From NCBI RefSeq assembly GCF_014905095.1, contig NZ_CP041165.1, forward strand, positions 1,054,001-1,118,000: DNA of 64,000 nucleotides, in the 5' to 3' direction. Origin of the DNA: Sulfurimonas marina. GTDB taxonomy: Bacteria > Campylobacterota > Campylobacteria > Campylobacterales > Sulfurimonadaceae. The translations under genes were made by a program, and so were the position numbers. This document shows positions 41,589-59,024 of this stretch, piece after piece. Positions within the stretch are counted from its first letter, which is position 1. Each line of letters starts with the position of its first letter. Under the pieces are notes generated by a model. That model was not told the DNA's origin. It did not search any database and saw nothing but the letters and a program-made list of their open reading frames with translations.

Positions 41589-41722
41589 TTTCAACCCCTT
41601 TTTGGTGTAAACATTCTTGACGAGCAAACACTTAATGTTTAGCCGGAAAGAAATCATGTTTACTCTATTTTTTGATCTGAATTGAAAAAATATTACATCA
41701 CTGAGAAATAAAAATATAAAAA

Positions 41723-41739
41723 TATGTCAATTTGTCATA
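41723..41739. promoter_or_regulatory. Operator-like palindrome upstream of the S24 regulator
   Basis: TATGTCAATTTGTCATA is an inverted repeat of 7-bp half sites with one mismatch pair. Its centre (41731) is 38 bp upstream of the TATACT -10 box. A near-identical site (17 of 21 positions) lies before the recN-like gene at 57418-57438. It is a probable binding site of the adjacent S24 regulator. Confidence 0.55.
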
Positions 41740-41768
41740 AAAATATTGATTTTTTCAAAAAAATTGAA

Positions 41769-41774
41769 TATACT
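41769..41774 (+). promoter_or_regulatory. -10 box of the S24 regulator
   Basis: TATACT 29 bp before the ATG at 41804. AAGGAG follows as ribosome binding site. The 295-bp region 41509-41803 otherwise holds the possible mini-gene and the palindrome, plus an AAACATT/AATGTTT pair near 41610-41640. Confidence 0.5.
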
Positions 41775-41803: not shown

Positions 41804-42460
41804 ATGAATAGTTTTTCTGATATAGTAGAAGAGATAAAAAGTATATTATCTTCAGAATTCTCTCCAAAGAAAGTTTTTGATAAAGATGTTGCAGAGTCGA
41901 TTGGAATCTCTCAAATGAACTTTGCAACAATGAAAAGACGCAATAAGATACCTTTTGGTGAATTGTTGGACTTTTGTGCACGGAGAAGTATCTCTATTAA
42001 CTGGTTACTTTACGGACAATCACCTGAAAGTTTGGTTGGCCCTACAAATAACTATATGATCAAGTATTTTACAGATATTAACGCAAGTGCCGGCGGTGGT
42101 AGCGATAACGAATTTGAAGAGGTAGAATCGTTAGAGATCCCGCAGCAATTCGTTTTTATGCTTGGAGGTGAACGAGAGCTGCAACATATAGAAGCGATCA
42201 ATGTAAGCGGTGATTCTATGGAGCCAACTTTTAGCTATAATGATATAGTATTTATTAATAGAAACAAAACTGATATCAATCGCGGCGGTATCTTTACTAT
42301 AAGAACAGAAGCAGGATTGTTTATTAAACGTATTCAAAAAAGAATTGATGGAAAGATAGATGTAATTTCAGACAATTCTGTTTATAATACACAAACATTA
42401 GATCCCCAAGAGATTGAAGTAATAGGGCGAGTAGTTAGCCGTTTTGGGGATGTTGACTAG
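41804..42460 (+). CDS. LexA/CI-like S24 family self-cleaving transcription regulator
   Basis: A 218-residue protein. Residues 1-75 form a CI-type helix-turn-helix (KDVAESIGISQMNFATMKRR), and residues 85-218 a S24 peptidase domain. The nucleophile is Ser138 in GDSMEP and the general base is Lys175 in GLFIKRI; their spacing of 37 equals that of E. coli LexA (119/156). A candidate autocleavage Ala-Gly bond is at 96-97 in NASAGGG. This is the architecture of RecA-responsive repressors (CI, LexA, HdiR). No phage genes are adjacent. A palindrome upstream suggests autoregulation. Confidence 0.85.
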   Translation: MNSFSDIVEEIKSILSSEFSPKKVFDKDVAESIGISQMNFATMKRRNKIPFGELLDFCARRSISINWLLYGQSPESLVGPTNNYMIKYFTDINASAGGGSDNEFEEVESLEIPQQFVFMLGGERELQHIEAINVSGDSMEPTFSYNDIVFINRNKTDINRGGIFTIRTEAGLFIKRIQKRIDGKIDVISDNSVYNTQTLDPQEIEVIGRVVSRFGDVD

Positions 42461-46564: not shown

Positions 46565-47188
46565 TTACAGTTCTTGTAATAAATTAATAAAGTTTTTGTA
46601 GCTATCTACAATTTTTTGATTTTTTTGATTTGCAATATAAAATTCTATCGCTTTTTTCCCAAGTCTTGGGATCTCATTTTTTACAGCCCAGCTTGAAACG
46701 GTTCCTTCCGGAACTTCAAGGATTTCGGCTAATTGTTTTTGCGTAATGTTTAACTCTTTACATATATCCTTTACAATATTTGACTTTTGTTTCGTTTGTT
46801 TTTTAGTTGAATTTTTTACAGGTTTTTTTACCGATGCAGTTTTTTTTGTTTTAGTCTCTGAATTTTTAAAATCAGTACAATTTTTTTCGATCCATTGTAA
46901 CACTTCCGATGCACTAATTACCCAATCTCTGGTATTTAAACCTCTTACAATATCTTTTGTATATTGTTGTGCATAAGTTTCGGCTAGTTCTTCATTGCTT
47001 AATTGAGCCAACATAGAAAAGGCAAGTTGCATTGCACCTTTACTTTGATTACCCCAGTCAAATCCATTTTTAGATTGCTGATATTGTTCATATCTTGTTG
47101 GAAGTTCCAGTTCGCCATATGTAACAAACTTATTTCCAAGCAGTGTCCTATGCCCCTTAAAGACATGGTTGTTCATCGTTATTGCCAT
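46565..47188 (-). CDS. DUF6166 domain protein with helix-turn-helix domain
   Basis: A 207-residue protein of two parts. Residues 1-95 match DUF6166 (the SKNGFDWGNQSKGAMQLAFSML and NTRDWVISASEVLQWIEK segments). A Lys/Thr-rich linker (~108-138) leads to an XRE-like helix-turn-helix (VKDICKELNITQKQLAEILEVPEGTVSSW, ~140-175). The DUF6166 family is unassigned, and its members often lie on plasmids or phages. Fusion to a DNA-binding domain suggests regulation. It follows a 42-aa membrane gene by 8 bp. Confidence 0.7.
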   Translation of the reverse strand: MAITMNNHVFKGHRTLLGNKFVTYGELELPTRYEQYQQSKNGFDWGNQSKGAMQLAFSMLAQLSNEELAETYAQQYTKDIVRGLNTRDWVISASEVLQWIEKNCTDFKNSETKTKKTASVKKPVKNSTKKQTKQKSNIVKDICKELNITQKQLAEILEVPEGTVSSWAVKNEIPRLGKKAIEFYIANQKNQKIVDSYKNFINLLQEL

Positions 47189-56565: not shown

Positions 56566-57414
56566 ATGCGTTTATCAGATCATGAACTTTGGGAATATAT
56601 TCGTGAAGATATTCCCTATTTCGATCTTACAACCCACTTGCTTGATTCTAAAGTTCAAAATAAGCAGGCTGTTTTAAAGATCAAAACACGAGAAGATATT
56701 GTTGTAGCTTGTATAGAGGAAGCTGCACGTATAGGGGAGCTTTTAGGATGCAGGGCAACTTATGAAATAAGATCCGGTAGTTTGATAAAAGAGGGAAGCA
56801 GTTTTTTAGAACTTCAGGGAGATGCAAAAACACTTCACCAAGCATGGAGAGTGACACAGATACTTTTAGAATACTCTTGTGGTATGGCTACGGCTGCACA
56901 CAAGATGGTTCAGGAAGTAAAAGAGGTTAATGCAAAATGTGAAATATTTGTTACACGTAAAAGTTTTCCTTTTGCAAAACATTTTGTTATGCGTTCGTTA
57001 GTATCTGCAGGTGTCTTACCCCATAGGCTAGGGTTATCTGAGTCTGTTCTTATCTTTGATAATCATAGGGCACTTTATGATACGCAGGATGAGTTTGAAG
57101 CGGCAATCCCTGAGATTAAAGAGCGATGTGTTGAGAAAAAACTGGTGATTGAGTCAGATTCCCTTGAAGATGCGCAAAAAATGCTCTCTTTAGGAGCAGA
57201 TGTTATCCAAATGGATAAAACTACACCTGAAAAATTACAACAGTTAGTTGAATATAAAAACAAGTACTATCCAGCTGCAAAAATTATAGCTGCCGGCGGC
57301 ATTAATAGAAGAAATGCCAAAGAGTACGCTGCTACAGGCATTGATGCCATTGTCACAAGTTCACTATATTCTGCAGGACTTTGTGATCTCACAAGCACTT
57401 TTCAAACTTTATAA
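56566..57414 (+). CDS. modD: ModD-like (quinolinate phosphoribosyltransferase-type) protein
   Basis: A 282-residue homologue of NadC, the type called ModD when found beside mod genes. It has the NadC-like N-terminal domain and a C-terminal barrel with MATAAHKMV, FVTRKSFPFAKHF, DVIQMDKTTPEKLQQ and AAGGINRRNAKEYAATGID. The reaction of ModD is not established; a role in molybdenum uptake is inferred from the context. It abuts modA. Confidence 0.8.
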   Translation: MRLSDHELWEYIREDIPYFDLTTHLLDSKVQNKQAVLKIKTREDIVVACIEEAARIGELLGCRATYEIRSGSLIKEGSSFLELQGDAKTLHQAWRVTQILLEYSCGMATAAHKMVQEVKEVNAKCEIFVTRKSFPFAKHFVMRSLVSAGVLPHRLGLSESVLIFDNHRALYDTQDEFEAAIPEIKERCVEKKLVIESDSLEDAQKMLSLGADVIQMDKTTPEKLQQLVEYKNKYYPAAKIIAAGGINRRNAKEYAATGIDAIVTSSLYSAGLCDLTSTFQTL

Positions 57415-57417
57415 AGA

Positions 57418-57438
57418 AATATGACATTTTGTCATATT
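57418..57438. promoter_or_regulatory. Perfect palindrome upstream of the recN-like gene
   Basis: ATATGACATTTTGTCATAT (57419-57437) is the core of a perfect palindrome with 9-bp arms and a 3-bp centre. It lies 4 bp after the modD stop. It matches the S24 regulator palindrome at 17 of 21 positions, and its centre is 36 bp before the TAGAAT -10. Its weak pairing and lack of a T-run make a terminator unlikely. Confidence 0.55.
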
Positions 57439-57463
57439 CTTTTACCATTGTCTAAAAATAAGT

Positions 57464-57469
57464 TAGAAT
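57464..57469 (+). promoter_or_regulatory. -10 box of the recN-like gene
   Basis: TAGAAT, 28 bp before the GTG at 57498; GAGGA is the ribosome binding site, seven bases before the GTG. Confidence 0.45.
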
Positions 57470-57497
57470 TTTTCAAAATTAGTATGAGGATATTACT

Positions 57498-59024
57498 GTG
57501 ATAGAAAGATTTTACTTAAAAGACTACCTTAGTTTTAAAAAGACAGAACTAAATCTAAATCATGGACTTATTGTATTTTCGGGACCAAGCGGTAGCGGAA
57601 AATCTATCTTAATGGAGTCTATTCTCTCCTCTGTAGGTTTAAGCTCATGTGACGCCAGCATTTGTGAAAGTAGCGTAACATGGGATATTGACGAAGAGGA
57701 AACTGGACTTGAAAATGATGAAATCAATGTATTTAAACATACAAAAAAAGAGAAATCCAGATACTTTATAAACAATCAGGCAATATCTAAAAAATCTATC
57801 AATTCCCTTACAGGCAAATATCTTAAACATTTAAGCCTTCGTGATTTTAGCGATTTTGAAAATGAGGGTCTTTTATCGATCCTTGATCATAAAATAGGGC
57901 AAAAAGCACTCAAACTCAAACAAGATTATCAAGAAACTTATCGTGATTATATCAAGGTAAAAAAAGAGCTTGAGGTTCTCGAAGATGAAGAGAAACGCAT
58001 TGTAGAGCTCAAAGAGTTTGCACAATTCGAGATAGATAAAATTGTGAACGTTAATCCTAAAGATGGGGAAGATGAAGAGCTTTTGGAGATCAAAAAAGAG
58101 CTTTCTAAAAAAGAAAAGGCTCTTGATGTTATAGGAAATGCCAATGAGATCTTCAACTTTGAACACTTGGTCTCTTCGGCACTTGATACTTTAGATGTTG
58201 AAAGCTCATTCTTTGATGATGCCATGAATGAATTACGTGGAGTCTTAGAGAGTGCCCAGGAGAGATTTTCGGCACTCGATGAGATAGATGTAGAGGATGT
58301 GTTAAACAGAATAGAGGAATTAAGTGAGCTTAAACGCAGATACGGTTCTATAGAAGAAGCTTTGGAGTATAAAGAGCAAAAACTGCAAGAGCTGGAAAAA
58401 TATGAAAACATAGAGGTGCAAAAAGGTGATCTGCAACAACGTTTTGAGAAGTTAGATACACAAATCTATACACTTGCAGATTCACTAAGCTCTTTAAGGG
58501 AAAAAGCACTTAAAAACTTTACAAAAGAGCTAAATGGTTATCTAAAACAGCTTTATCTTAGAGATGCAGAGGTTAACTTGACAAAAGAGAAGTTAACTCC
58601 AAATGGACAAGATATACTCAGTATTAAACTTAATTCTACGGAACTTTCAAAAATAAGTACAGGTGAGTTTAACAGACTCCGTTTAGCGGTACTTGCTCTT
58701 AAATCTGAAAGTATAGAGAACTTAGGCGGTGTACTTATGCTTGATGAGATCGATGCAAATCTCAGTGGGGAGGAGTCTATGAGTGTAGCAAAAGTGTTGA
58801 AAAAATTGACAAAAAACTTCCAGATTTTTGTTATTTCTCATCAGCCGCAACTTACATCTATGGGTGATCAGCACTTTTTAGTCTATAAAGATGGTAATAT
58901 TTCAAAAACAAAAGAGTTAAGCTTTGATGAAAAAGTTGATGAGATAGCTCGTATTATTAGCGGTGATACTATCTCAAACGAAGCAAAAAGCTTTGCTCAA
59001 GAACTATTAGAGGCAAATATATGA
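57498..59024 (+). CDS. recN: RecN-like SMC-family DNA repair ATPase
   Basis: A 508-residue protein. The Walker A motif GPSGSGKS is at 29-36, a coiled coil spans about 140-340, the ABC-type signature is STGEFNRLRLAVLALK, and Walker B reads GVLMLDEIDANLSGEE, followed by the His switch VISHQPQL. It is a little shorter than E. coli RecN (553). RecN clamps DNA and promotes double-strand break repair together with RecA. The start is GTG. The palindrome upstream suggests damage-linked control. It overlaps tatD by 4 bp. Confidence 0.87.
   Translation: MIERFYLKDYLSFKKTELNLNHGLIVFSGPSGSGKSILMESILSSVGLSSCDASICESSVTWDIDEEETGLENDEINVFKHTKKEKSRYFINNQAISKKSINSLTGKYLKHLSLRDFSDFENEGLLSILDHKIGQKALKLKQDYQETYRDYIKVKKELEVLEDEEKRIVELKEFAQFEIDKIVNVNPKDGEDEELLEIKKELSKKEKALDVIGNANEIFNFEHLVSSALDTLDVESSFFDDAMNELRGVLESAQERFSALDEIDVEDVLNRIEELSELKRRYGSIEEALEYKEQKLQELEKYENIEVQKGDLQQRFEKLDTQIYTLADSLSSLREKALKNFTKELNGYLKQLYLRDAEVNLTKEKLTPNGQDILSIKLNSTELSKISTGEFNRLRLAVLALKSESIENLGGVLMLDEIDANLSGEESMSVAKVLKKLTKNFQIFVISHQPQLTSMGDQHFLVYKDGNISKTKELSFDEKVDEIARIISGDTISNEAKSFAQELLEANI

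Follow-up and report, generated by a model that had tools for sequence, protein, structure and literature searches.

The window, by which we mean the whole analysed stretch of 64,000 nucleotides, is part of the Sulfurimonas marina genome (G000; one contig of 2,261,034 bases) and carries two similar palindromes, one upstream of recN and the other upstream of a gene for a regulator of the S24 peptidase type, hereafter the S24 gene. The features concerned are listed by window position; operators and promoter elements were read from the sequence.

41721..41741, no strand assigned: putative operator AATATGTCAATTTGTCATAAA upstream of the S24 gene, conserved in 64 of 69 promoters of the genus
41746..41751, + strand: -35 element TTGATT of the S24 gene (genus consensus TTGAC)
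41769..41774, + strand: -10 element TATACT of the S24 gene, 38 bp past the operator centre at 41731
41804..42460, + strand: S24 regulator gene, 218 aa, CI-type HTH plus S24 peptidase, candidate LexA substitute (domain, alignment and structure matches)
57418..57438, no strand assigned: putative operator, perfect 21-bp palindrome AATATGACA-TTT-TGTCATATT upstream of recN, matrix score 28.4
57464..57469, + strand: -10 element TAGAAT of recN, first base 36 bp past the operator centre
57498..59024, + strand: recN, 508 aa, divergent RecN, candidate target gene (TIGR00634 match)

The palindrome before recN is exact to the base, as the initial annotation had described it. Its centre (57428) lies 36 bp before the first base of TAGAAT (57464), its end 60 bp before the GTG start codon, and it is identical to the S24-gene site at 17 of 21 positions by hand count; the coordinates thus agree with the annotated spacings of 36 bp at recN and 38 bp at the S24 gene. 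The annotation had also reported no third copy in the window and had judged a chance recurrence unlikely. Indeed, with up to three mismatches the two sites are the sole matches in the window, and 100 shuffles of the window gave a mean of 0.09 matches and a maximum of 1. When each place was given the lower of the scores from two matrices, one built from genus recA promoters only and one from radA promoters only, the S24-gene site reached 21.1 and the next best place in the window 2.0, while the best score in 20 shuffled windows was 12.6. The recN product matches the RecN profile TIGR00634 over its full length, yet with 204.6 bits stays below the cut-off of 407.85, and we therefore regard it as a divergent RecN. 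A ModD/NadC-like gene (TIGR01334, over cut-off) lies immediately upstream at 56566-57414; in many other genomes of the genus, a nadK or integrase gene occupies this place.

The S24 protein

Judged by family searches, the S24 protein is not a LexA but a CI-type S24 regulator. Pfam assigns its N-terminus to Phage_CI_repr (PF07022, 22.7 bits, cut-off 22) and finds a Peptidase_S24 domain (PF00717, 67.7 bits, cut-off 23.3) but no LexA-type winged HTH (PF01726) at E ≤ 0.001, and against the LexA equivalog TIGR00498 the protein scores 23.7 bits, far from the cut-off of 110.95. It matches the PHROG 4 transcriptional repressor with an E value of 6.8e-33, and the nearest solved chains by sequence are LexA and UmuD, in the peptidase domain only and with E 5.8e-5 at best. 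In a structure search with the predicted model (mean pLDDT 87.7, pTM 0.61), the best matches were the lambda-186 hybrid repressor 7jvt (E 4.8e-10) and 186 CI, followed by LexA, with RecA-bound LexA (8trg) at E 4.3e-8. Across 34 S24 sequences from nine families, S95-A96-G97, G99, G136, S138, M139-E140-P141 and K175-R176 are invariant. The protein has the traits of an S24-family SOS regulator, namely a peptidase with a Ser-Lys dyad and an Ala-Gly scissile bond, and a common site at its own gene, recA and other repair genes. From our point of view it most probably works like LexA.

The idea of a second operator spanning the -35 and -10 elements of the S24 gene was set aside; TGNCA half-sites downstream of the -10 occur in 10 of 64 promoters. 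About 4 kb from the S24 gene, a 206-aa protein with a DUF6166 domain and a C-terminal CI-type HTH is encoded at 46565-47188 on the minus strand.

Operator sites in Sulfurimonas and related families

Throughout the 2.26-Mb genome, only four places match ATATGACANNNTGTCATAT with up to two mismatches, and these lie at recN (0 mismatches), radA (0), recA (1) and the S24 gene (2); the identities of recA and radA are certain from TIGR02012 (556 bits) and TIGR00416 (611 bits), both over cut-off. Matches with three mismatches carry no meaning on their own, because 21 places were found at up to three mismatches compared with 23 in the backward control, which was counted for this limit only. Among the 17 places with exactly three mismatches, 11 were viewed: eight are intragenic, one (L007) overlaps a gene start and two (L008 and L014) are intergenic. 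As operators, the places with exactly three mismatches were dismissed, except for L008 upstream of rmuC, which was retained through a wider pattern. With one mismatch allowed, this wider pattern occurs at 11 places in the genome versus 3 in controls, and it adds sites upstream of rmuC (PF02646, 345 bits), upstream of a gene for a Y-family DNA polymerase (PF00817, 134 bits) and in the intergenic space that separates a glyQ-like from a recG-like gene. The site L180, which is the L014 place, has no -10 at offset 36 on either side.

In the genus, an S24 orthologue at E 1e-49 or better is present in 116 of 135 genomes, and any S24 match at E ≤ 0.001 in 125. We examined recA, recN and radA promoters from 30 genomes picked for quality, together with 69 S24-gene promoters, calling a site when its score lay above the 99th percentile of shuffles and limiting the search at recN to 160 nt. 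The matrix from recA promoters only found sites in 64/69 S24-gene, 29/30 radA and 8/30 recN promoters, and one from radA promoters only in 64/69 S24-gene, 30/30 recA and 8/30 recN promoters. The shared operator pattern reads AATAT[GT][AGT]CA-WWW-TG[ACT][AC]ATATT. The direct recN site is the least conserved (9/30 when 200 nt are searched), and when up to 1,500 nt upstream of recN are taken into account, the recN transcription unit carries a site in 20 of 30 genomes. Nine of these lie immediately upstream of recN (65 to 196 nt; the weakest, in G031, scores 10.3), six upstream of an integrase gene followed by recN (with a short open frame in G004) and five before nadK-recN. At each of the 20, a search of offsets 33 to 40 from the centre gave a -10-like hexamer at 35 or 36 bp. 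The other ten genomes had no site within the searched 1,500 nt, of which one offered just 446 nt. Over the whole recN loci (134,690 nt), 20 matches scored above 8, compared with 0.55 in shuffles. The shared regulator that the initial annotation had thought plausible is thus strongly supported by the sites at recA, radA, the S24 gene and the recN unit.

The enrichment of the motif at repair genes and in orthologous promoters, proposed beforehand as a test, was likewise found. In ten other Sulfurimonas genomes, the strict pattern WWTATKDCAWWWTGHMATAWW occurs at 47 places (3 to 8 per genome), with 0 in the backward control. Besides recA, radA, the S24 gene and the recN units, its neighbours include recG (directly in 6/10 genomes, and at 340 nt in G059), a gene for a 115-codon CxxC-bearing protein (6/10 genomes), comM/yifB, rmuC, genes for a ComEA-like protein and a polysaccharide deacetylase, and an integron integrase gene; part of the strict sites precede genes without a known repair role or lack a clear target. 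The 115-codon protein (sites L202, 1580-1924, and L195, L204, L206, L242 and L244) matches a topoisomerase C-terminal repeat weakly and below threshold, and is a candidate for a new DNA-damage gene.

A LexA above the TIGR00498 cut-off was found in 0 of 135 genus genomes and in 0 of 298 sampled genomes of the phylum, whereas in each search 6 of 14 control genomes, Escherichia coli and Bacillus subtilis among them, exceeded it; the single weak LexA match in S. marina is the S24 gene itself. In the phylum sample, 134 of 298 genomes have an S24 match at 1e-20 or better. By our own count, 97 of these reach about 1e-53 or better and belong to the families f1, f4, f5 and f7-f11, plus one f2 genome (G294), and the remaining 37 are weak (1e-34 to 1e-21), all lie in f2 or f3 and are probably phage repressors. 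By comparison with named records, f1 comprises Sulfurimonas/Sulfuricurvum, f4 Sulfurovum/Nitratifractor, f7 relatives of Arcobacter and f10 Sulfurospirillum. For f2 and f3, we presume Helicobacteraceae and Campylobacteraceae as the probable identities.

The recA site was absent from all 16 promoters examined in f2, f3 and f6 (best score 5.9), with 11 of 12 genus recA promoters scored alongside reaching 16 or more. In f5, f8 and f11, where an S24 orthologue is present, a clear recA site was found in 0 of 9 promoters. The own-gene palindrome of f5 and f8 is, by eye, TTAACA-N3-TGTTAA or near it in most sequences, and their recognition-helix region reads PExxS, not QxxFAT, in an alignment judged by eye. 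Within the genus, no S24 orthologue was found in 14 genomes, all of them drafts (completeness of G056 99%, G087 94% and G033 92%); recA could be located in 12 of them and kept its site in 11, and in G122 and G069 neither recA nor an S24 orthologue was found.

Operator position relative to the -10 element

The initial annotation had noted that the two window sites lie at the same distance from their -10 elements, a remark that proved more striking than first apparent, as the spacing recurs at recA, radA, recN and other targets. Counted from the operator centre to where the best -10 hexamer begins, the spacing is precisely 36 bp for 28/30 recA, 25/29 radA and 7/8 recN promoters, and precisely 38 bp for 55/64 S24-gene promoters of the genus, while in shuffled downstream DNA only 10-24% of offsets fall between 34 and 40. 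For 26 other target promoters, the mean -10 score is 8.64 at offset 36, compared with 6.17 at the next best offset and 4.33 overall (sd 0.87). In 20 of these promoters, offset 36 itself is occupied by a hexamer with a score of at least 9.2; two further promoters have theirs at 37 and one at 35, and the three off the spacing are both promoters of a 2OG oxygenase gene and that of a 62-codon gene. At L181 and L246, a 2OG-Fe(II) oxygenase gene is divergent from comM/yifB and shares a common operator region with it, but its own side lacks a -10 at 36.

Outside the genus, 21 recA promoters of f1, f2, f4, f7, f9 and f10 were analysed with ties broken towards 36. G226 and G321 have no clear site and G143 is borderline; in the 18 promoters whose site scores at least 13.5, the hexamer at 36 is the best in nine and among the top three in six more, and the rest are G294, at 37, and G246 and G261, whose double sites were not separated by the script. 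At the S24 gene itself, the offset is 27-28 in 4/5 f4 genomes (in one via the second-best site), 7 and hence over the -10 in 5/8 genomes of the Arcobacter-type f7, and -16, after the -10, in 4/4 genomes of f9 and f10. Among other f1 genera, five sequences have as their best hexamer a TATAAT at 7, and the offset of one further sequence is 17. A hexamer at 35-36 is present in three sequences of the Sulfuricurvum type and is the best one in one of them. In the f2 genome G294, the offset is 37. The own gene thus shows variable, partly blocking positions, and the targets nearly one position at non-homologous promoters of several families. Since simple blocking needs no such spacing, the fixed 36 bp hints at contact with RNA polymerase at the targets, which could mean repression as well as activation.

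The recA and radA promoters have no -35 box and an extended -10 (TGn) in 0 of 59 cases. We dropped the idea that this marks an activator, because ordinary promoters in the window also mostly lack a -35 and carry TGn in only 3 of 27 cases (the recN and S24 promoters included); missing -35 boxes are therefore uninformative on activation.

Regulatory models and known systems

In our view, the palindrome is probably the operator of an SOS-type regulon that the S24 product runs in the place of LexA, in Sulfurimonas and in related families. A dimer of the S24 protein, the presumed binder, would bind the shared pattern and near variants of it at its own gene, recA, radA, recN, recG, rmuC and others. 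Upon DNA damage, RecA on single-stranded DNA would trigger self-cleavage of the S24 protein between Ala96 and Gly97, carried out by Ser138 and Lys175. The cleaved dimer would leave the DNA, the S24 gene would be derepressed, and transcription of the repair genes would change, most simply through release from repression, with damage induction as the expected outcome at the targets.

Several lines of evidence support this LexA-like role, namely that the sole four genome sites with at most two mismatches precede recN, radA, recA and the S24 gene; that recA-only and radA-only matrices each recover the S24-gene site; that strict sites are found with no control counterpart and next to recG, recN units, rmuC, comM and an integron integrase gene; that the recN loci hold far more matches than their shuffles; that no LexA passes the cut-off in the genus or the phylum sample; that the cleavage site and dyad are invariant; that the own-gene site takes a blocking position in f7, f9 and f10; that the recA site is missing in the families without a close orthologue; and that the structure matches include both the lambda-186 hybrid repressor and RecA-bound LexA. 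Against it stand the fixed target spacing, which exceeds the need of simple blocking, the ten of 30 genomes without a site before the recN unit, the retention of the recA site in 11 of the 12 drafts where no S24 orthologue was found, which reflects either assembly gaps or another binder, the families f5, f8 and f11 with an orthologue and no clear recA site, and the strict sites before genes without a known repair role.

The spacing is the main argument for a different division of labour, in which the S24 protein would repress its own gene but serve at the repair promoters as an activator or a dual regulator that touches RNA polymerase from a fixed place, with the operator centre near -48. On this view, cleavage driven by RecA would restrain expression instead of inducing it, or the active form would be the one bound to RecA. 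The exact 36 bp at recA, radA and recN, the peak of -10 scores at this offset in the 26 other targets, its prevalence in recA promoters of other families and the lineage-dependent own-gene offset (38, 35-37, 27-28, 7 and -16) all fit such a contact, and so does the -35 box of the Sulfurimonas own gene, which the targets lack. However, ordinary promoters of the window share this lack, own gene and targets are not cleanly distinct everywhere (a hexamer at 35-37 also occurs at the own gene of three sequences of the Sulfuricurvum type and of G294), destruction of an activator by RecA would lower recA under damage, contrary to the usual logic, and contact-dependent repression explains the spacing equally well. 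We therefore consider a polymerase-touching activator or dual regulator rather unlikely. A broader formulation holds that, in several free-living families of Campylobacterota, the response to DNA damage came under a captured phage repressor, with this repressor blocking its own promoter and contacting polymerase from 36 bp before the -10 as an activator or contact-dependent dual regulator rather than acting as a LexA-type blocker; weakened by the target-like own-gene offset in some lineages, it can be entertained only tentatively.

One could also imagine that another regulator binds the palindrome and that the S24 gene is merely one of its targets. The persistence of the recA site in drafts without a found orthologue would fit, and that the S24 protein binds the site is something we infer from co-occurrence and from co-variation of helix and operator only. 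On the other hand, the S24-gene site of other families covers or follows the -10, as is usual for an auto-repressor, families without a close orthologue lack the recA site in 16/16 promoters, and the changed recognition helix of f5 and f8 goes with a changed palindrome, which makes a separate binder improbable. A mere chance likeness of two AT-rich palindromes in one window can be set aside with near certainty: AT-rich intergenic DNA does yield many weak inverted repeats, but two sites occurred in 0 of 100 shuffles, and conservation in the genus across 30 genomes, with 47 strict sites versus 0 in controls, already refutes it.

As a LexA substitute, the S24 protein would belong to a known kind of regulator. 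In passages of PMC8565304, phage-CI-like S24 proteins are described as SOS repressors of Bacteroidetes, with tests in vitro and in vivo, and as exclusive to that phylum. They resemble the S24 protein in the peptidase, phage-type HTH, Ala-Gly bond, Ser-Lys dyad, palindromic SOS-type operators and a phylum without LexA, but belong to another phylum and have different operators, among them CTAA-N5-TTAG (PMC8565304); the Sulfurimonas case is computational. HdiR of Streptococcaceae and UmuDAb of Moraxellaceae (the latter described in part of PMC3978071) are likewise S24 regulators that substitute for an absent LexA. Their regulons appear in parts of PMC8565304 as minimal and made up mainly of error-prone polymerases, with cinA-recA under HdiR in S. 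thermophilus, whereas the Sulfurimonas sites lie at recA, radA, recN, recG and more. FddR of Francisella, a genus discussed as lacking LexA, is presented in sections of PMC13148647 as a captured phage repressor in the DNA-damage response that clusters with lambdoid repressors, with recA uninduced; in Sulfurimonas, by contrast, recA carries the most constant site.

LexA itself (TIGR00498) shares with the S24 protein the S24 domain, cleavage site, dyad, regulon content and own-gene site, but has a winged HTH in place of Phage_CI_repr and a different operator, and the fixed target spacing is particular to the S24 protein. The CI repressors of phages 186 and lambda are alike by the top structure matches and PHROG 4, yet the S24 gene is kept in most genomes of a bacterial genus, and its product has putative targets among repair genes. 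Within the phylum, parts of PMC2912397 describe H. pylori and C. jejuni as lacking lexA and the SOS response of H. pylori as probably absent. Searches of the open-licence literature yielded no paper on a LexA substitute for Sulfurimonas or for Campylobacterota at large; regulators of this kind are known there, and we came upon no published account of the S24 protein, its operators, its phylum as a host of such a regulator or the spacing rule.

The distribution suggests that an SOS-type regulon under another protein has been kept in the Sulfurimonas, Sulfurovum, Arcobacter and Sulfurospirillum types, and the sampled f2 and f3 genomes have neither a recA operator nor, with the exception of one f2 genome, a close orthologue. 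If true, this would be another independent case of an SOS network rebuilt around a phage repressor, in which the fixed spacing turns blocking versus polymerase contact into a directly testable question.

Integrons elsewhere are under LexA control, and the integron integrases with an operator in two Sulfurimonas genomes parallel them. These are assigned by TIGR02249 (cut-off 265 bits) in G002, upstream of recN, and G014, away from recN, with 390 and 420 bits; integrases in other genomes were identified by similarity of the protein start only. Both genes (L234, locus 372-1388 in G002:C1:1146300-1149400, and L237, locus 366-1349 in G014) have an operator with the -10 at exactly 36. In G002, the integrase gene lies between the operator-promoter and recN, and this promoter resembles, by eye, the recN promoter of G016.
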